NCBI GenBank assembly: GCA_020722945.1
Contig: DYJV01000089.1
Span: 1 to 7,343 of the forward strand
Direction: 5' to 3'
Length of the DNA stretch: 7,343 nt
Source of the DNA: Candidatus Methylomirabilis sp.
Lineage (GTDB): Bacteria > DYJV01
Part shown: positions 26 through 7,343 of the stretch, one piece after another
Layout of the letters: every line of letters starts with the position of its first letter
Numbering within the stretch: the first letter of the stretch is position 1
The notes under the pieces: model-generated
The model's input: the letters and a program-made list of their open reading frames with translations, nothing else
Told to the model about the DNA's origin: nothing
Database searches by the model: none
Position numbers and translations under genes: made by a program

Positions 26-1030
26 CTATTTAACTTCCTGAACATATTCAAATCTTAAAATGTACCAGCGTAAACCACTGCTTATAATATTTTTAATATC
101 CGAGTATGTAGGCTTCCATTGTAATTTTTTCATAATCTTTTCATAGGAACCAATCAATATTTCTGGGTCACCAGCTCTTCTACTACCAATTTTGTATTTT
201 ACTTTTTGGCCAGATAGTTTCTCAATCTCATTGATAACATCTCTCACACTAAAGCCTACACTATTGCCAAGGTTAAAACACTCTGAGCTCCCACCACTTC
301 CCAAGTATTCTAACGCCAATTTGTGAGCAAGAGCCAAGTCATAAACATGTATATAATCCCTAATACATGTACCATCATATGTGTCATAATCATCACCAAA
401 AACAGTTAAAACATAATCACTTTCATATGCGGCTTTTATCGCCAGGGGGATCAAGTGCGTCTCTGGGTCATGTAGCTCACCGAGCTCTCCATCAAAATCT
501 GCTCCTGAAGCATTAAAATACCGCAGTGCGACATATTTGAGACCATATGCCAAATCGTAGTCTTTTAATATTTGCTCTATCATAAATTTTGTTTTGCCAT
601 AAGGATTTATTGGATTTTGTGGATGCTCCTCTGTTATTGGAAGTGATTCAGGGATGCCATATGTGGCACATGTAGATGAAAAAACAATTTTTTTAACTCC
701 AAATTCAAGCATAGTGTCGAGTAAATTTAGTGTCCCAACTACATTGTTTTGATAGTATTTCTGAGGATTACCAACAGACTCTCCAACATACGCATACGCT
801 GCAAAGTGAACAACAGCATCTATTTTATATTTTGGGAATATGCTTCTCAGACTATTTTTATCTAATAGGTCACCTTGTTCAAAAGTACCCCATTTTACAA
901 ACTCTCTATGTCCATATACTAAATTGTCAAAAATAATAGTATTGTAGCCAGCATTTGATAAAAGTTTATTGGTATGACTGCCAATATAGCCTGCACCTCC
1001 TGTAACCAATATGTATTTTTGACTCATCAT
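26..1030 (-). CDS. galE: UDP-glucose 4-epimerase
   Basis: An NAD-dependent short-chain dehydrogenase/reductase that interconverts UDP-glucose and UDP-galactose in the cytoplasm. Its 334 residues are the usual length for the family. Visible marks are the NAD-binding GGAGYIG (11-17), FDNL at the end of the second strand (34-37), GDLLD (53-57), HFAAYAYVGESV (75-86), FSSTCATYG (117-125) carrying the Ser/Thr of the active site, and the catalytic YGKTK (Y144, K148). LRYFNASGAD, the IRDYIHVYDLA segment and RRAGDPE (284-290) complete the substrate-binding half. By eye, the position matching E. coli Tyr299, which restricts the enzyme to non-acetylated sugars, is Leu292, so activity on UDP-GlcNAc cannot be settled. 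Two tandem ATG codons (1030, 1027) are possible starts; the gene begins one base after the DUF4422 stop. In this operon it probably feeds UDP-Gal both to the GT8 domain and to Glf. The stop is TAG at 26-28. Confidence 0.95.
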   Translation of the reverse strand: MMSQKYILVTGGAGYIGSHTNKLLSNAGYNTIIFDNLVYGHREFVKWGTFEQGDLLDKNSLRSIFPKYKIDAVVHFAAYAYVGESVGNPQKYYQNNVVGTLNLLDTMLEFGVKKIVFSSTCATYGIPESLPITEEHPQNPINPYGKTKFMIEQILKDYDLAYGLKYVALRYFNASGADFDGELGELHDPETHLIPLAIKAAYESDYVLTVFGDDYDTYDGTCIRDYIHVYDLALAHKLALEYLGSGGSSECFNLGNSVGFSVRDVINEIEKLSGQKVKYKIGSRRAGDPEILIGSYEKIMKKLQWKPTYSDIKNIISSGLRWYILRFEYVQEVK

Positions 1031-1031
1031 A

Positions 1032-1802
1032 TTACTCTTGAATCAAGGCTATATTCTGCTCTCTAATCAAAATATTGTGCCTACTTTTTAAAATATGCAA
1101 GTATATATTAAGTATCCTCTCCCCCATAAAGCCCAAAACTTTATACTGATAGAGCTTTAACTTACTAAAATCTATATTTTTTTCCATCTCTTCACAAATA
1201 GTGAACAAAAACTGCATATAATCACAAAAGATCTCTTTTCTCATGATAAACATATTGTAATAATGTACACTACGAATAGATCTAGACTCATCAATCATGC
1301 CACTCCACTCTGGATAGAGCTTCTTGGCAGTTTCGATCATTAAGTCAAAATACTCTATCGGATGAGATACCTCATATTGAGACTCAAGAGTAGCACTTCT
1401 ATACACCTCTGCCTTTGGTAATATAATATCATATCCAGCAATAGAGTCGTATATTGCTTGCTCATCCCAGAGGAGATGTTTTTTTGTCTTATGCTCATGT
1501 AAAAAGTTTGGTATCTCTATAATTTCTCTTGTATCGTTTTTGGCAAACGATAGATATCTTCTATAGTGAGCTAATCCAACATACTCTGGAAGTTCTACAT
1601 TTTTCCAGATCCAATATAGCAGTGTCAGCTCCGCATATTTTCTATTTTTATTAGAAATATTGACACCAGTATCGTCACCATCCAAGCCAAGGTCAACGCT
1701 GCTGATCGCCTTACCAACTTGCATAGGCACAAAAATATCATTTTCCACTAAATGAAATGGTCTATGATACGCTACAAAAATTTTTACTTTGCTACTATTC
1801 AA
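1032..1802 (-). CDS. DUF4422 (GT111-type) glycosyltransferase, probable galactofuranosyltransferase
   Basis: A 256-residue protein covering essentially one DUF4422 domain. Visible marks are the start KIFVAYHRPF (7-16), FVPMQVG (24-30), the GDDTGVNISNKN stretch (42-53), the tyrosine/glutamate segment YAELTLLYWIWKN (56-68), HYRRY (79-83), DIILPK, NMFIMRKEIF and the C-terminal GFMGER (224-229). This is the family order from end to end, so the protein looks complete. Established knowledge: the DUF4422 domain of Klebsiella WbbM was shown to be a galactofuranosyltransferase and founded CAZy family GT111. With glf and galE in this operon, UDP-galactofuranose is the likely donor here too, which is inference from family plus context. 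The TTG start overlaps the upstream stop (TTGA) by 4 bases and has a GGAG 8 bases upstream, indicating coupled translation with the GT8-containing gene. No transmembrane segment is seen; it should act on lipid-linked glycan in the cytoplasm. Linkage and acceptor are not readable from sequence. Confidence 0.88.
   Translation of the reverse strand: MNSSKVKIFVAYHRPFHLVENDIFVPMQVGKAISSVDLGLDGDDTGVNISNKNRKYAELTLLYWIWKNVELPEYVGLAHYRRYLSFAKNDTREIIEIPNFLHEHKTKKHLLWDEQAIYDSIAGYDIILPKAEVYRSATLESQYEVSHPIEYFDLMIETAKKLYPEWSGMIDESRSIRSVHYYNMFIMRKEIFCDYMQFLFTICEEMEKNIDFSKLKLYQYKVLGFMGERILNIYLHILKSRHNILIREQNIALIQE
1035..1039 (-). promoter_or_regulatory. Weak ribosome binding site AAGAG for galE
   Basis: On the minus strand AAGAG lies 4 bases before ATG 1030 and 7 bases before the directly following ATG 1027. 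The spacing slightly favours the second ATG, which would give a protein one residue shorter (MSQKYILVTGG). Confidence 0.45.
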
Positions 1803-4276
1803 TAAACATTCTCCAGCCTAACGGTCAGCTTTCCGCACTCTAGTATTTTTGGATTTACTTTTTGATATTTGCCAAAAACAATAGCCTCGACATCACTAAT
1901 ATGAATCTTTATAAACTCATCTGTCGAAACAACTGGTATACCGTTGTAGTTATCTGAAAAATTGTCATCAATAATTACACCGATACTGCAATTCATATTT
2001 TTTTCCACAAAAGCTATTGTTAGTTTCCCAGACATTCCAAGTCCGAAAACAGCTATACTTCTAGCATTCTCTAAGTTTACATATCCTTCAATCTTTTCCC
2101 TAAAAGCTTCAAATGTATCATCATATAATTTTTTTACTTTTTTATAGAATGGTGTTTTTTTCAAATACAACCAAAAATAATCATCAAGTGGTACTTTACC
2201 CTTCCAAGGCTTCAGATGATGTCCTGCGTAGTGGATTATAAAAGGATTTGACATGCTGTTGTGGTATTTGCTATAGTCAGATTCACCGACATGTCTCATG
2301 ATATCATCATATTGCACTATTACATTCCATGCTGCATCCAAAAAGTTGACATTATTTTTAAAATATAGATTTAATATATCTTGATCTACGGCATTAAACT
2401 CTTTTTGCTCGTAAAGCTGAAGCATTTTTGACTCAAGCCCCGCACTCCTGATCTTTTTAAGATTAAACACCATCACGCCGGCATTGAAATAGTTCATTAT
2501 GGCATCAGCACTGAGGCCTACAGAAGATAAATACTCATCATACCTAGCTCCGCCAAAACGCTCTGCGACTTTTGAGCCATTTTTTATCATGAGTCTATAT
2601 GTCAGGTCTATACAGACAGCAGCATAGGTCTCTCCCAGATCTACACCTTGTAGCTCTGACAAATCTTTAAGGACTATCGTGTCTGGATCAACATACACAA
2701 CCTTTTCATATGAGGGCATTAGTGAGCCAAGTTTTAGTCTAAAAAAAGTAGATTTTGCAAAGTGACTATGAACAGCGTCTTTTTTTTCAAAGCCAATCTC
2801 GCCCTCAAAAAATCTCAGACTAAAATTATCTTTTGCGTCTACAATCTGACATAGTTTGTTTTCATTTTCTAGGCTTATGTTGTCTGCCAAAACAACAATG
2901 TCATAAAAATAATCTTTGCTTGAATTATCAGCTATAGACGCCAAACAAGCCCCAAAATAAGGAGCGTAGTTATCATCAAAAGCAGTAACTATACTCACCA
3001 CCTTTCGCCCATCCAAAACAAATGTATCTAACTGCGAAATACATCCGGTCTCTATCTTGTTGGATACAGATAAATACTCAAGCCAACGGAGTGTTTTTGT
3101 GCCAAAAGCATCTTCAATGGTATCGTCTTGCGATGACCGTTTAAGCACTGAAGCCTTTGAGTTGAAAAAAATATAACCATCTTTCAAGCATCTATAGAGA
3201 TAACCACTGTTAAATACATAATTTTTGAGTATTTTAGTTACAGAGTCAATGACCACATCGCTATTCGCGACCAGCATCCAGTCATCTCCACTAAAACTGT
3301 TCGCATATAGTTCTTTTAAGTTGTTTACTATCGTAATTGACCTTGGAAGAATATTTTTGTTGCTCTCTGAGATACGAAGACTCTGGTCATGCATATAAGG
3401 TAATGCCTCATCTATGACTTCATGCTCATTTGGGTCATAATGATCTACATCAAAAATTTCATATTTACCTTTTTTAAATTTTGGACTGTTCATCTCTTGT
3501 AGTTTTTGAGCCCAAAATGGCGACATATCATCTACCTCTTGTCTCGCATCTCTTTTTGGTGCTGGCAGACAAGCACTGCAATACTCACACCAGTTGAGCT
3601 GCTCTTTAAAGTCCTCTGGTTTTCTATTCCACCAACCCTTTTCGATCTTCCAACCACCAGGACCTTTAAACAAATAATCAAGTGCAGCAGCTACTTCACA
3701 GAAAAATGCACCCTTTGGCGTAATTGATGCACTCCAATATTTTTGAACCCAACAATCATCACGAAGCTTGTACCACTCTTCATCTGGTATGCCAAGCTCT
3801 TTTCTAGTCAGCATCAAAGTTTGATGAAAGCTGGGATTGATATGGTCGTTTAGGGCTTGATAACTATACGTCTTTTGAATCACCTCGAAATGTTTGTAAT
3901 AGTTTCTACCAACAGATGACCAAAGTCCTCTTTTTGTATGTTTTGGGTCTTCATAATTGAATACATTTTCCACCACATAACCTACAAAATCTTTTGTTGG
4001 ATTTTTAAACTCATTTTGCACTTCACCGTTACCAAAATTTTCTCGAAAATAGTCAGAAAATTTTTCAAACTCAGGATGAAGCGTAGGCTCACCACCCATG
4101 ATGCCAACAGTACCCTGAAAGCCCTTCATAGAGTCTACGGCCTGCTTAAATGTGTCAAAGTCCATAAAAAAAGGTTCTTCATGATGACCGCAAAAGCGGG
4201 TACAATTAGAACAACTGAGACTACATGCATTAGTAATCTCTATCTGTATTATGTTCATATCTTTTGGCGATTTCAA
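1799..4276 (-). CDS. Radical SAM - family 8 glycosyltransferase fusion protein with C-terminal Rossmann-like module
   Basis: An 825-residue protein with four regions. (1) About 1-245: radical SAM domain, with the CxxxCxxC cluster site at C18, C22 and C25, an extra C29, the SAM-binding GGEP at 61-64, and later cysteines C175, C193, C230, C233 and C236. The C193 plus CxxCxxC arrangement looks like a partial SPASM/twitch auxiliary Fe-S site. (2) About 246-424: region I cannot assign. (3) About 425-715: GT8 retaining glycosyltransferase, with VVSIVTAFDDNY, the metal-binding YVDPDT (D530, D532), FNAGVMVFNL, DQDILN and a closing HYAGHHLKPW (682-691). (4) About 738-825: Rossmann-like module with AVFGLGMSGK, IIDD and GIPVV. 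GT8 enzymes in such clusters usually transfer galactose or glucose from UDP donors, and galE in this operon supplies UDP-Gal. The radical SAM part implies reductive cleavage of SAM and modification of a substrate, but which one is unknown. The TTG start is chosen because AAAGGA lies 6 bases upstream. The stop overlaps the DUF4422 start by 4 bases. Domain calls are firm; the function as a whole is inference. Confidence 0.88.
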   Translation of the reverse strand: MKSPKDMNIIQIEITNACSLSCSNCTRFCGHHEEPFFMDFDTFKQAVDSMKGFQGTVGIMGGEPTLHPEFEKFSDYFRENFGNGEVQNEFKNPTKDFVGYVVENVFNYEDPKHTKRGLWSSVGRNYYKHFEVIQKTYSYQALNDHINPSFHQTLMLTRKELGIPDEEWYKLRDDCWVQKYWSASITPKGAFFCEVAAALDYLFKGPGGWKIEKGWWNRKPEDFKEQLNWCEYCSACLPAPKRDARQEVDDMSPFWAQKLQEMNSPKFKKGKYEIFDVDHYDPNEHEVIDEALPYMHDQSLRISESNKNILPRSITIVNNLKELYANSFSGDDWMLVANSDVVIDSVTKILKNYVFNSGYLYRCLKDGYIFFNSKASVLKRSSQDDTIEDAFGTKTLRWLEYLSVSNKIETGCISQLDTFVLDGRKVVSIVTAFDDNYAPYFGACLASIADNSSKDYFYDIVVLADNISLENENKLCQIVDAKDNFSLRFFEGEIGFEKKDAVHSHFAKSTFFRLKLGSLMPSYEKVVYVDPDTIVLKDLSELQGVDLGETYAAVCIDLTYRLMIKNGSKVAERFGGARYDEYLSSVGLSADAIMNYFNAGVMVFNLKKIRSAGLESKMLQLYEQKEFNAVDQDILNLYFKNNVNFLDAAWNVIVQYDDIMRHVGESDYSKYHNSMSNPFIIHYAGHHLKPWKGKVPLDDYFWLYLKKTPFYKKVKKLYDDTFEAFREKIEGYVNLENARSIAVFGLGMSGKLTIAFVEKNMNCSIGVIIDDNFSDNYNGIPVVSTDEFIKIHISDVEAIVFGKYQKVNPKILECGKLTVRLENVY
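1811..1814 (-). promoter_or_regulatory. Ribosome binding site GGAG for the DUF4422 gene
   Basis: On the minus strand GGAG lies 8 bases upstream of TTG 1802, inside the end of the upstream fusion gene. No ATG or GTG lies in frame before the conserved KIFVAYHRPF, so this site decides the TTG start. Confidence 0.7.
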
Positions 4277-4282
4277 ATTGAA

Positions 4283-4288
4283 TCCTTT
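4283..4288 (-). promoter_or_regulatory. Ribosome binding site AAAGGA for the radical SAM-GT8 gene
   Basis: On the minus strand AAAGGA lies 6 bases upstream of TTG 4276 and 24 bases upstream of the next in-frame candidate, ATG 4258. The spacing favours the TTG start, although the ATG form (starting MNIIQIEI) also gives a family-like N-terminus. The site begins on the last base of the preceding gene's stop codon. Confidence 0.7.
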
Positions 4289-5403
4289 CAGGCAAATAAA
4301 TAGCGAATATAAATTCTTAATAAAATTTTAGCCTTTTTATATTCTTTGCAAAGTACAAGCCAAAAAATCAAAAAAGGTATTTTTTCATGCAAGTTGTCTA
4401 TAAACAAAAAGTAGAAACCTTCCAAACCTAAGTTCTTCATTTCCCTATAAAAACCTATCAGATGATATGCAATAAATTTTTTGTCTTTTACACCATAAAA
4501 ATCAGTATATTTAAAAAAATTTTTATATTTAACTATTGACTTTTGAAAATAGGAAGAAAAATTTTCACCTTTAGAAAAAAAAGAGTATACTCCGTGAATA
4601 AAACGAAAATAAAATAAGGTAAAATATTCCTTATATTGTCTATTAGTTTTGAGACCATTCGCTCTCAATATCTCATAAATACCTTCAACTACATGGTAAC
4701 TTTTTTCTATGTATTCAGCTTTTTTTTGCATGGTAGCGGAATTTGTATTCTTTTGATTATAAAAATAAATGTAATCAGATATTAATGCTACCTTTTTTGA
4801 CAGCAATAATTCATTAAAATTGGTTATTACATCTTCATACAATCCATTATCATGCTTGATAGAATTATCCATAATAAAGCTTTTCTTTATAATTTTTCCC
4901 CATGGTTCAGTGGGTAACCACATATCATTATTAAAAATTTGGAAGTATCTTCCCCATATTTCATCATCTTTAAGGAGCATATATTCATTTTTATAGTTAC
5001 CCAGAAAAGTATCTTTTTCAATATTTTTATCTTCATAACACCATACTGAGTTTGCAATTGCAATATCAGCATCATCCTTTTTTATTGCCAACAATAGCTT
5101 TTCTATATAATCATTGGTAAATGAATCATCAATATCAATATATGCTATATACTTTCCATTGGAATTTAAAAAACCTGTATTCCTGGCACATCCCTGACCC
5201 ATATTCTGTTTATGTTCAAAGTAATGAATTCTTTTATCCATATCAAGATAAGGAAAAATCAATTCTTTTGATCTGTCAGGAGAGGCATCATTAACTACTA
5301 TAACTTCGAAATCTTTAAAGGTTTGGGAAAAAATCATTTTAATAAATTCATCAATATAGGCTTCAGCATTATAAACAGGTGTTATTATACTTACTTCAGG
5401 CAT
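4288..5403 (-). CDS. Glycosyltransferase family 2
   Basis: An inverting GT-A glycosyltransferase of 371 residues, predicted to transfer a sugar from a nucleotide donor to a lipid-linked glycan intermediate. Visible marks are the N-terminal VSIITPVYNAEAYI (4-17), VVNDASPD (36-43) for nucleotide binding, QNMGQGCARNTG (66-77), the metal-binding YIDIDD (88-93), EPWGKIIKKSFI, and an LYEDV motif, whose acidic pair usually holds the catalytic base. The last ~45 residues are rich in aromatic and aliphatic residues with interspersed lysines and arginines, which fits peripheral membrane attachment rather than a clean transmembrane segment. The start ATG at 5403 overlaps the glf stop by 8 bases, so translation is probably coupled; only a weak AAAG lies upstream. 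The gene is clearly more AT-rich than its neighbours (15-28% GC in 60-base blocks counted by hand, against 37-50% in blocks of the flanking genes), which suggests separate acquisition. Donor and linkage cannot be assigned. Confidence 0.9.
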   Translation of the reverse strand: MPEVSIITPVYNAEAYIDEFIKMIFSQTFKDFEVIVVNDASPDRSKELIFPYLDMDKRIHYFEHKQNMGQGCARNTGFLNSNGKYIAYIDIDDSFTNDYIEKLLLAIKKDDADIAIANSVWCYEDKNIEKDTFLGNYKNEYMLLKDDEIWGRYFQIFNNDMWLPTEPWGKIIKKSFIMDNSIKHDNGLYEDVITNFNELLLSKKVALISDYIYFYNQKNTNSATMQKKAEYIEKSYHVVEGIYEILRANGLKTNRQYKEYFTLFYFRFIHGVYSFFSKGENFSSYFQKSIVKYKNFFKYTDFYGVKDKKFIAYHLIGFYREMKNLGLEGFYFLFIDNLHEKIPFLIFWLVLCKEYKKAKILLRIYIRYLFA

Positions 5404-6532
5404 TGGCTATATCTTTACTGAAAATTTCCAAAGCTCTCTCGACCGCCTGATCCATGTTGTAGTATTTATACTCTCCAAGCCTGCCAGCAAAAATTACACT
5501 ATCATTGTCTTTTCCCAAAGACCTATATCGCTCGTATAAAGCTTGATTTTTGCTATTTGGCACTGGGTAGTAAGGATCATTTATACCCAGTTTAAACTCA
5601 CATGGATATTCGTAAGAGACAACGGTATTTGCTGACTTTTCTTTCAAAAAATATTTATATTCTGTTATCCTCGTGAAATCAAAATTATTCGGGTAATTAA
5701 CTTGTGTGCAACGCTGAAAAAACTCACTGCCATAAGTCACAAAATCAAAATCCAAACTCCTATATGGCAATGCACCAAACTTGAACTCATAAAATTCATC
5801 TATCATACCTGTATATATTATTTTTTCATACTTGTTAGTATCAGTTAATTTTTTGTAGTCGCATTCAAGCCTTACTTCTATAAGGGGGTTGTCCAACATT
5901 TTCTCTATCATTTTGGTGTATCCGCCACTTGGAATTGCTTGATATTTATCTTGAAAGTAGCAATTATTTCTGCTTGATACAAATGGAACCCTAGATAATA
6001 CCGACCTGTCAAGCTCTGATGGCTCAATCCCCCATTGCTTCACAGTATAACCAACAAATACCTTTTCATAAATATATTCAGCAAGAAAATTTAACTCTTT
6101 ACTCTCTAAAAGCTCCAATATGGAAACAGATCTTGAATACCCATATTCTTTGATAATTTTTTCCTCAAACTCTTCGCAAATGGCTTTTGGAAATAGCATA
6201 TTTAGAGAGTTGAAATTAAATGGCAACGGAATATTCTGTCCGTCAACCATTGCTTCTACCTTATGAAAATATGGTTCCCATTTTGTAAACTGCGATAAAT
6301 AGTCCCAAACTTTCTGTGAATTTGTATGAAATGCATGTGGACCGTATTTATGTATAGTTATGAAGTCTTTGTTCTTGTAATCATAAATATTGCCAGCTAT
6401 ATGAGCTCTTCTATCGACTATCAAAACTGGTTTTTTCAGCGTATTAGCTATCCTCTCAGCAATTACAACGCCAGTGAGCCCGCATCCAACTATCAAATAC
6501 AATTCTGCAACCCGTTTAGATAATTTCTCCAC
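5396..6532 (-). CDS. glf: UDP-galactopyranose mutase
   Basis: This flavoenzyme converts UDP-galactopyranose to UDP-galactofuranose, the donor for galactofuranosyltransferases, in the cytoplasm. The 378 residues match the usual family length. Visible family marks are the FAD-binding YLIVGCGLTG (12-21), a HIAGN (44-48, the common HxGGN region with Ala in place of the first Gly), KYGPHAFHT (62-70), YTVKQWG (162-168), a YQAIPSGGYT segment, an FTRITEYKYF segment carrying the conserved Arg, and the C-terminal GRLGEYKYYNMDQ (350-362). The start is uncertain. The longest form begins at GTG 6532, overlaps the upstream gene by 40 bases and adds ten residues before the usual N-terminus. A TTG at 6502 would give a typical start (xYLIVGCG) with a 10-base overlap. 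Neither has a clear Shine-Dalgarno at good distance. It overlaps the next glycosyltransferase gene by 8 bases. With galE in the same operon, it implies a galactofuranose-containing glycan. Confidence 0.95.
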   Translation of the reverse strand: MEKLSKRVAELYLIVGCGLTGVVIAERIANTLKKPVLIVDRRAHIAGNIYDYKNKDFITIHKYGPHAFHTNSQKVWDYLSQFTKWEPYFHKVEAMVDGQNIPLPFNFNSLNMLFPKAICEEFEEKIIKEYGYSRSVSILELLESKELNFLAEYIYEKVFVGYTVKQWGIEPSELDRSVLSRVPFVSSRNNCYFQDKYQAIPSGGYTKMIEKMLDNPLIEVRLECDYKKLTDTNKYEKIIYTGMIDEFYEFKFGALPYRSLDFDFVTYGSEFFQRCTQVNYPNNFDFTRITEYKYFLKEKSANTVVSYEYPCEFKLGINDPYYPVPNSKNQALYERYRSLGKDNDSVIFAGRLGEYKYYNMDQAVERALEIFSKDIANA

Positions 6533-7343
6533 ACCATAACATCTATCACTCTTTTAAATCTCAGGCTTCCAATTTTAAGCCAAATACTTCTCAAGGTATC
6601 AATATTACCGCTAGGAATAACAATTGTAAAATCATTCTTAATGTCCGCTGGATTGACTATCTGAATTCCAAAAAGCTCTCCTGACTCGTAATCGTCTATA
6701 AAGTTAACAATTTGCTTTTCTATATCATGCCTTTTAAAACTGTCGTATAAAGTTTTAGCAGCCTCTTTTGTACCGTATATTGCAACCTTTTCATTTTTTG
6801 AAACTAGCTCATAACATCTATGCAAAAATTCACCATAACCACTACCAATTTTACCATACTCCCAAGCGATTCTATTTGCCTCATATGAGTATCTCTTCTG
6901 CTTCCAGCCTAAAATCTCATCATCTGTCAATAGGCAATTTTTTTTTGCAAAATCACCAACTAGTGAAATCCAACATAATGCGTCAAAATTTTTTACAATA
7001 TTATCTTTTGAAAAAAAGCTTATACAGCTAGGTTCAACATTGTGTACATATGTAATAGAGTCAAGATAGGCAAAATTTCCTATGAGTGCCAGCTTAAACA
7101 TCATTTCAGTATCAAGTGTACTAATATCCATGCTGAATAAATTCAACTTTTTAACTTCTTCTCTCCTGTAGACTGCTCCATTATCTGAATATAGAAATTT
7201 ATTCATAAAAATATCTTGTCCACTATTGATTTCAGAAAATATACAATCTTTTCCGTATAAATGATCGCCATCTATATTTTTGTACAAAACATTTGAAAAT
7301 ACACAAACTACATTTTGATTTTCATATTTTTTAAAAAGCTCTA
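6493..7343 (-). CDS. Glycosyltransferase family 2, C-terminal part, with Rossmann-like tail (5' truncated by window edge)
   Basis: The reading frame is open from the right edge to a TGA at 6493-6495, giving 282 visible residues. The true start lies outside the window; a TTG at 7287 is an internal leucine codon, since the frame continues upstream of it. The first ~130 residues resemble the acceptor-side half of GT2 enzymes: a VVCVFSNVLYKNIDGD stretch, a SDNGAVYRREE segment (the usual 'gai.rr' region), LDTEMMFKLALIG (the usual D/E-containing 'yel.lrla..G') and a histidine/asparagine segment near HNVEPSCISF. The nucleotide-sugar DxD region is not visible. From about visible residue 184 a second module begins, with KVAIYGTKEAAK followed by FIDDYESG and GIQIV. 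This is a Rossmann-like fold of the kind seen in PglD N-termini, with ligand unknown. The same module type ends the radical SAM-GT8 protein downstream. Probable role: adds a sugar to the lipid-linked glycan at the cytoplasmic face of the membrane. Sugar specificity cannot be read from this fragment. Confidence 0.75.
   Translation of the reverse strand, partial: ELFKKYENQNVVCVFSNVLYKNIDGDHLYGKDCIFSEINSGQDIFMNKFLYSDNGAVYRREEVKKLNLFSMDISTLDTEMMFKLALIGNFAYLDSITYVHNVEPSCISFFSKDNIVKNFDALCWISLVGDFAKKNCLLTDDEILGWKQKRYSYEANRIAWEYGKIGSGYGEFLHRCYELVSKNEKVAIYGTKEAAKTLYDSFKRHDIEKQIVNFIDDYESGELFGIQIVNPADIKNDFTIVIPSGNIDTLRSIWLKIGSLRFKRVIDVMVWRNYLNGLQNCI

Follow-up and report, generated by a model that had tools for sequence, protein, structure and literature searches.

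A Twitch-type radical SAM domain fused to a WbbM-type GT8 glycosyltransferase: a possible synthase-coupled enzyme of glycan modification

Can an oxygen-sensitive radical SAM enzyme be part of the machinery that builds a polysaccharide? The question is raised by a contig of Candidatus Methylomirabilis sp. (DYJV01000089.1), of which 7,343 nucleotides (hereafter the window) were analyzed. One gene in the window encodes a protein in which a radical SAM domain precedes a GT8 glycosyltransferase. To our knowledge, no characterized radical SAM enzyme acts on a polysaccharide. No description of a fusion between radical SAM and GT8 domains was found in the literature searched; Twitch radical SAM domains and WbbM-type GT8 domains are both known, and it is their pairing for which no description was found.

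Integrity of the fusion gene and its place in a probable galactan-type gene row

The first-pass annotation had described an uninterrupted frame of 825 residues within a glycan operon and had judged that the join is not an assembly error. The ORF listing agrees on the frame, which starts with TTG and continues for 825 codons without a stop, open throughout. The start call is taken as correct because homologs begin with MKSPADM or MKSPRDM at the point where the fusion begins with MKSPKDM and because AAAGGA precedes the TTG. The judgement on the join is borne out by the N-terminal family, members of which are joined to glycosyltransferases elsewhere among bacteria and on phage contigs, and a search for homologs of the same kind recovered a second chain with radical SAM, DUF4422 and GT8-like domains (L151). 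The fusion within a glycan operon is real. An assembly or frameshift artefact was considered and is ruled out by the open frame, the start shared with homologs and the recurrence of the fused radical SAM/GT-A core in alphaproteobacteria, a second bacterial family and phages. Contamination of the genome bin is not indicated, as tetranucleotide profile and GC are in line with those of further contigs from this genome, at correlations of 0.81-0.93. The features of the window are listed in Table 1.

Table 1. Predicted features of the window, with positions, strand and supporting evidence
Feature	Positions	Strand	Evidence
Fusion protein, 825 aa: Twitch-type radical SAM, GT-A remnant, GT8, Rossmann-like tail	1799..4276	-	ORF, domain matches, homologs
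Radical SAM and Twitch domain, residues 1-300	3377..4276	-	Pfam Radical_SAM; AlphaFold pLDDT 87, pTM 0.86; SpeY and BtrN folds
CX3CX2C (C18/C22/C25), predicted radical SAM cluster ligands	4202..4225	-	Invariant, 78/78
GGEP, residues 61-64	4085..4096	-	G61, G62 invariant; E63, P64 ≥90%; IMGGEPLLHP-type motif also in SpeY
C175, predicted auxiliary cluster ligand	3752..3754	-	Invariant, 78/78; aligned with SpeY Cys
C193, predicted auxiliary cluster ligand	3698..3700	-	Invariant, 78/78; aligned with SpeY Cys
C230-x2-C233, predicted auxiliary cluster ligands	3578..3589	-	Invariant, 78/78
Degenerate GT-A-like segment, residues ~310-395, without N-terminal half and DxD (NSD)	3092..3349	-	Sequence alignment
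GT8 glycosyltransferase with intact catalytic motifs, residues 425-720	2117..3004	-	Pfam, WbbM match, fold
GT8 DxD (D530, D532)	2681..2689	-	Invariant in GT8 alignment
Rossmann-like tail (PglD_N-like), residues ~736-820	1817..2071	-	Weak Pfam match
GalE, UDP-glucose 4-epimerase	26..1030	-	TIGR01179 above cut-off
DUF4422/GT111 glycosyltransferase, WbbM's other half	1032..1802	-	DUF4422 E=1.4e-65; WbbM 27-279 E=1.5e-45; 4-bp overlap with fusion gene
GT2 glycosyltransferase	4288..5403	-	Glycos_transf_2 E=8e-35; 11 bp upstream of fusion gene
Glf, UDP-galactopyranose mutase (UDP-Galf supply)	5396..6532	-	TIGR00031 above cut-off

The genes for Glf, GT2, the fusion, DUF4422 and GalE follow each other in one direction with neighbours touching or overlapping, a row known within this short contig only. 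Comparison with the solved structure of WbbM from Klebsiella pneumoniae O2a (PDB 6u4b) revealed that its residues 27-279 correspond to the DUF4422 gene and residues 300-593 to the GT8 part of the fusion (E=4.7e-42). In WbbM, Galf is transferred by the N-terminal half (GT111) and Galp by the C-terminal half (GT8) (PMC12269835). Because WbbM matches both the DUF4422 gene and the GT8 domain and the fold agrees, the two genes probably represent a split WbbM-type synthase with a radical SAM domain on its GT8 half. By sequence, both components of a WbbM-type galactan synthase, GT111 (DUF4422) and GT8, are present on two adjacent genes. WbbM is likewise encoded in an operon with UDP-galactopyranose mutase; in contrast to the window, its halves are on one chain, which carries neither a radical SAM/Twitch domain nor a dead GT-A. 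By analogy with WbbM, and with GalE and Glf encoded nearby, the product may be [3)-aGalp-(1-3)-bGalf-(1-]n. In plasmid records, GT8 matches occur inside DUF4422-annotated genes, a WbbM-like arrangement without radical SAM.

The GT8 signature noted at first reading was recovered in full: D530/D532, YFNAG and HYAGHHLKPW are all present, and Glyco_transf_8 matches residues 429-692 (E=5e-41). Profile, DxD, HxxGxxKPW-type motif and a modelled LgtC-like fold assign the domain to the GT8 family. In the full-chain structure model (25 alignment rows), which is confident in GT8 only and poor elsewhere, the GT8 part fits WbbM best (Z 32.3), followed by LgtC (Z 26.1). LgtC (PDB 1g9r/1ss9), a GT8 galactosyltransferase, has the GT8 fold and motifs in common with the fusion, but is a single-domain protein without radical SAM. 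Among the matches listed in named phages and plasmids, the best were to the GT8 part of the fusion; when viral sequences were scanned with this part on its own, no match was obtained.

The first-pass annotation had missed the kinship with WbbM and also the GT-A segment, which aligns with the intact GT-A of L024 and with the remnants in L002 and L151; the corresponding GT-A of L040 and L041 has a Pfam GT2 match. The match of tail residues 741-793 to PglD_N (PF17836) is weak (E=0.03; 15.3 bits, cut-off 23.4). A further gene at 6493-7341 of the window is cut by the contig end and has no Pfam match; by eye its C-terminal part resembles the Rossmann-like tail type (VAIYGTKEAAKTLYDSF...FIDDYESGELFGI), and BLASTP did not support kinship with the tail of the fusion.

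Motifs and fold of the radical SAM domain

The Radical_SAM profile (PF04055), one of the domain searches suggested by the first-pass annotation, did match residues 12-79 (E=3e-5), but with a score of 24.6 bits, slightly below the Pfam cut-off of 29.5; relatives such as L024, L025 and L029 pass this gathering score. Among NCBIfam models many weak radical SAM matches were obtained, covering core residues only. All were far below cut-off, so the domain falls in no named NCBIfam radical SAM family.

Analysis of 78 family members revealed exactly seven invariant cysteines, C18, C22, C25, C175, C193, C230 and C233; N143, H151, W181, G189, E194 and W216 are also conserved. Mixed alignments in which GT8 rows fell partly on the radical SAM region were left out. 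The radical SAM signature described earlier (C18, C22, C25 and GGEP) is thus present and conserved. The earlier list of auxiliary cysteines stands for C193, C230 and C233 but not for C236, which is cysteine in just 12 of the 78 relatives, and it had left out C175. A SPASM domain, also proposed as a search target, is contradicted by these data: the cysteine set of a second auxiliary cluster is absent, no further invariant cysteine occurring among the 78 relatives. The conserved motifs and the predicted fold place the domain in the radical SAM superfamily, and the four invariant auxiliary cysteines, together with a modelled SpeY/BtrN fold over nearly the whole domain, place it in the Twitch class.

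With the AlphaFold model as query, Foldseek ranked SpeY and BtrN first (SpeY E=1.7e-7), and VIA-align gave Z 15.7 for SpeY (234 residues), Z 11.4 for BtrN and 9.3 for the next row. A sequence search with the family profile also retrieves both, BtrN at E=1.2e-4 and SpeY at E=3.4e-4; the domain is about 14% identical to the two. The substrate of SpeY belongs to the spectinomycin pathway. SpeY (PDB 7wzv/7wzx/7x0b), a Twitch radical SAM dehydrogenase, is the closest fold, shares an IMGGEP-LHP stretch and has two auxiliary cysteines that align; unlike the fusion, it is a stand-alone protein with a small-molecule substrate, only ~14% identical. BtrN (PDB 4m7s/4m7t), the Twitch dehydrogenase of 2-deoxy-scyllo-inosamine, is the second closest fold and has a single auxiliary cluster with four cysteines; it differs from the fusion in being small and stand-alone, with an aminocyclitol substrate and no glycosyltransferase. 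Three cysteines of BtrN bind the SAM cluster and four the auxiliary cluster, which is the proposed acceptor of the second electron in a two-electron alcohol oxidation (PMC9012708). SpeY and BtrN both dehydrogenate sugar-like compounds; the fold common to them does not fix the reaction of the present domain.

Relatives in bacteria and phages

Relatives of the radical SAM domain were found in Rhodoblastus, Acidocella and one more proteobacterial genome, and further in one bacterial family, one small phylum and many viral contigs, where at least 282 candidates were confirmed. The family is sparse: a sample of 386 genomes spanning bacterial families contained it in three. In one class it was found in 29 of 347 genomes, with the members in one bacterial family; none was found among 388 genomes of another order, an empty result that proves little.

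Most relatives are stand-alone proteins of 285-305 amino acids. In six viral contigs (L024, L040, L041, L042, L045 and L207) the domain is fused to a GT-A-like domain that is intact and keeps a DxD-type motif; L042 and L207 have an additional GT7C-like galactosyltransferase domain, and in L210 the fusion partners are glycosyltransferase and methyltransferase domains. Viral chains of about 1000 residues that link radical SAM to GT-A and GT7C-like domains, joined in L210 by a methyltransferase domain, are found at L207:1484-4465, L210:4146-7142 and L042:5001-7931. The chain in L207 directly precedes terminase genes, which identifies this contig as phage. In alphaproteobacterial relatives the GT-A is without DxD, and that of the window is shorter still. 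The chain L151:5151-8465 (genome G727) comprises 1104 residues with radical SAM, GT-A remnant, DUF4422-like and GT8-like domains and C-terminal repeats. Its GT8-like domain is degenerate and has no DxD, so a GT8 beside this radical SAM domain need not be catalytic.

A quick tree places the radical SAM domain of the window in a clade with 13 members (SH-aLRT 99), every one of which carries a C-terminal extension, usually made of glycosyltransferase domains. Other C-terminal extensions arose separately, namely Rossmann-like tails (L142/L143, by eye) and a methyltransferase (L053). The simplest history would be a single ancient fusion of radical SAM and GT-A, after which the GT-A decayed in bacteria and WbbM-type domains were recruited. 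An uncharacterized radical SAM family, repeatedly tied to glycosyltransferases in bacteria and phages, is hereby defined.

Sugar-related proteins are enriched beside the viral copies. Methyltransf_24 was found in 12 of 83 proteins within two genes of the radical SAM gene against one of 83 distant proteins on the same contigs (Fisher p ~0.002), and NDP-sugar epimerases in nine of 83 against at most one of 83 (Fisher p 0.003-0.02); these p-values are optimistic, the contigs being partly related and not independent events.

A proposed reaction and its alternatives

The best explanation of these data, to which we give slightly less than an even chance, is a glycan synthase that includes a Twitch radical SAM domain for the oxidation of a sugar hydroxyl on the polymer or its precursor. 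GalE and Glf would supply UDP-Galp and UDP-Galf, and the fusion and the DUF4422 enzyme would build a Galp/Galf polymer, the GT8 probably transferring galactopyranose from UDP-galactopyranose and DUF4422/GT111 probably acting as galactofuranosyltransferase, both activities being assigned from family knowledge. The dead GT-A, a likely leftover of an older radical SAM-GT-A fusion, may hold the radical SAM domain at the N-terminus of the GT8 half. A 5'-deoxyadenosyl radical would then abstract a hydrogen atom from a hydroxylated carbon in the glycan or precursor, and the four-cysteine auxiliary cluster would accept the second electron, yielding a keto-sugar. A short-chain reductase might reduce this to an epimer, so that the oxidation is possibly half of an epimerization.

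The domains, their motifs, the operon and the recurrence of the fusion are observed; a WbbM-like product, a sugar substrate for the radical SAM domain and oxidation as its reaction are what we infer. The first-pass annotation had suggested that synthesis is coupled to the radical modification of a sugar, glycan or attached group. That a sugar is modified gains likelihood from SpeY and BtrN, the solved structures nearest to the modelled domain, and from the sugar-enzyme neighbours. Relatives in which the domain is fused to GT-A, GT7C-like, DUF4422/GT8-like or methyltransferase domains also suggest a glycan role. Conversion of a hydroxyl to a ketone, as by BtrN and SpeY, is suggested by an agreement limited to fold and ligand pattern, the seven invariant cysteines dividing 3+4 as in BtrN. 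An epimerase returning hydrogen from a cysteine is disfavoured, because there is no eighth invariant cysteine. It is conceivable, and proposed here more tentatively than the explanation above, that the fusion is a synthase-coupled radical enzyme oxidizing or epimerizing polysaccharide residues during assembly, from an uncharacterized glycosyltransferase-linked Twitch family of bacterial surface-glycan clusters and phages.

Modification before transfer, with the radical SAM domain acting on a nucleotide-sugar or lipid-linked precursor (e.g. UDP-Gal or UDP-Galf) and the fusion only co-localizing two steps, appears unlikely but deserves serious attention. The substrates of SpeY and BtrN are small molecules, and most relatives are stand-alone proteins, often beside NDP-sugar epimerases and methyltransferases in phages; the consistent C-terminal extension of the clade that includes the window protein, mostly by glycosyltransferases, suggests instead a coupling with assembly. 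Another radical reaction on a sugar (deoxygenation, redox-neutral epimerization, decarboxylation or C-C coupling) is improbable. The sugar radical SAM enzymes DesII and BlsE are also among the structural matches, but at Z 7.7-7.9 they rank well behind SpeY and BtrN, and no spare invariant cysteine is available as hydrogen donor.

We consider it highly improbable that the substrate is a protein or peptide, such as a glycoprotein or RiPP: the SPASM peptide modifiers SuiB, anSME and PqqE follow in the fold ranking at Z 8-9 and some phage copies adjoin tail or capsid genes, whereas neighbours and fusion partners of the domain are sugar enzymes and no small gene for a precursor peptide was noticed in the window. 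We see a similarly small chance that the domain has no radical activity and serves as a structural passenger only, since all cluster ligands and GGEP are kept from bacteria to phages, even if the adjoining GT-A, having lost its catalytic residues, demonstrates that decay happens in this architecture.

If the radical SAM domain acts on the glycan, radical C-H chemistry enters polysaccharide assembly and provides a direct route to sugars that are unpredictable from nucleotide-sugar genes; there may be bacteria that change a surface sugar chemically while building it. With Twitch dehydrogenation the family presents a reaction that can be put to the test, and WbbM-type galactan synthesis is a partner system amenable to study.

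Further observations concern the neighbourhoods of individual relatives. In the viral contigs L029, L030, L031 and L032, WYNEE- or similar glycosyltransferase-like proteins and methyltransferase-like proteins are located near the radical SAM gene. In one bacterial family (L039, L122-L133), the stand-alone radical SAM gene adjoins one or two more radical SAM genes in several genomes.
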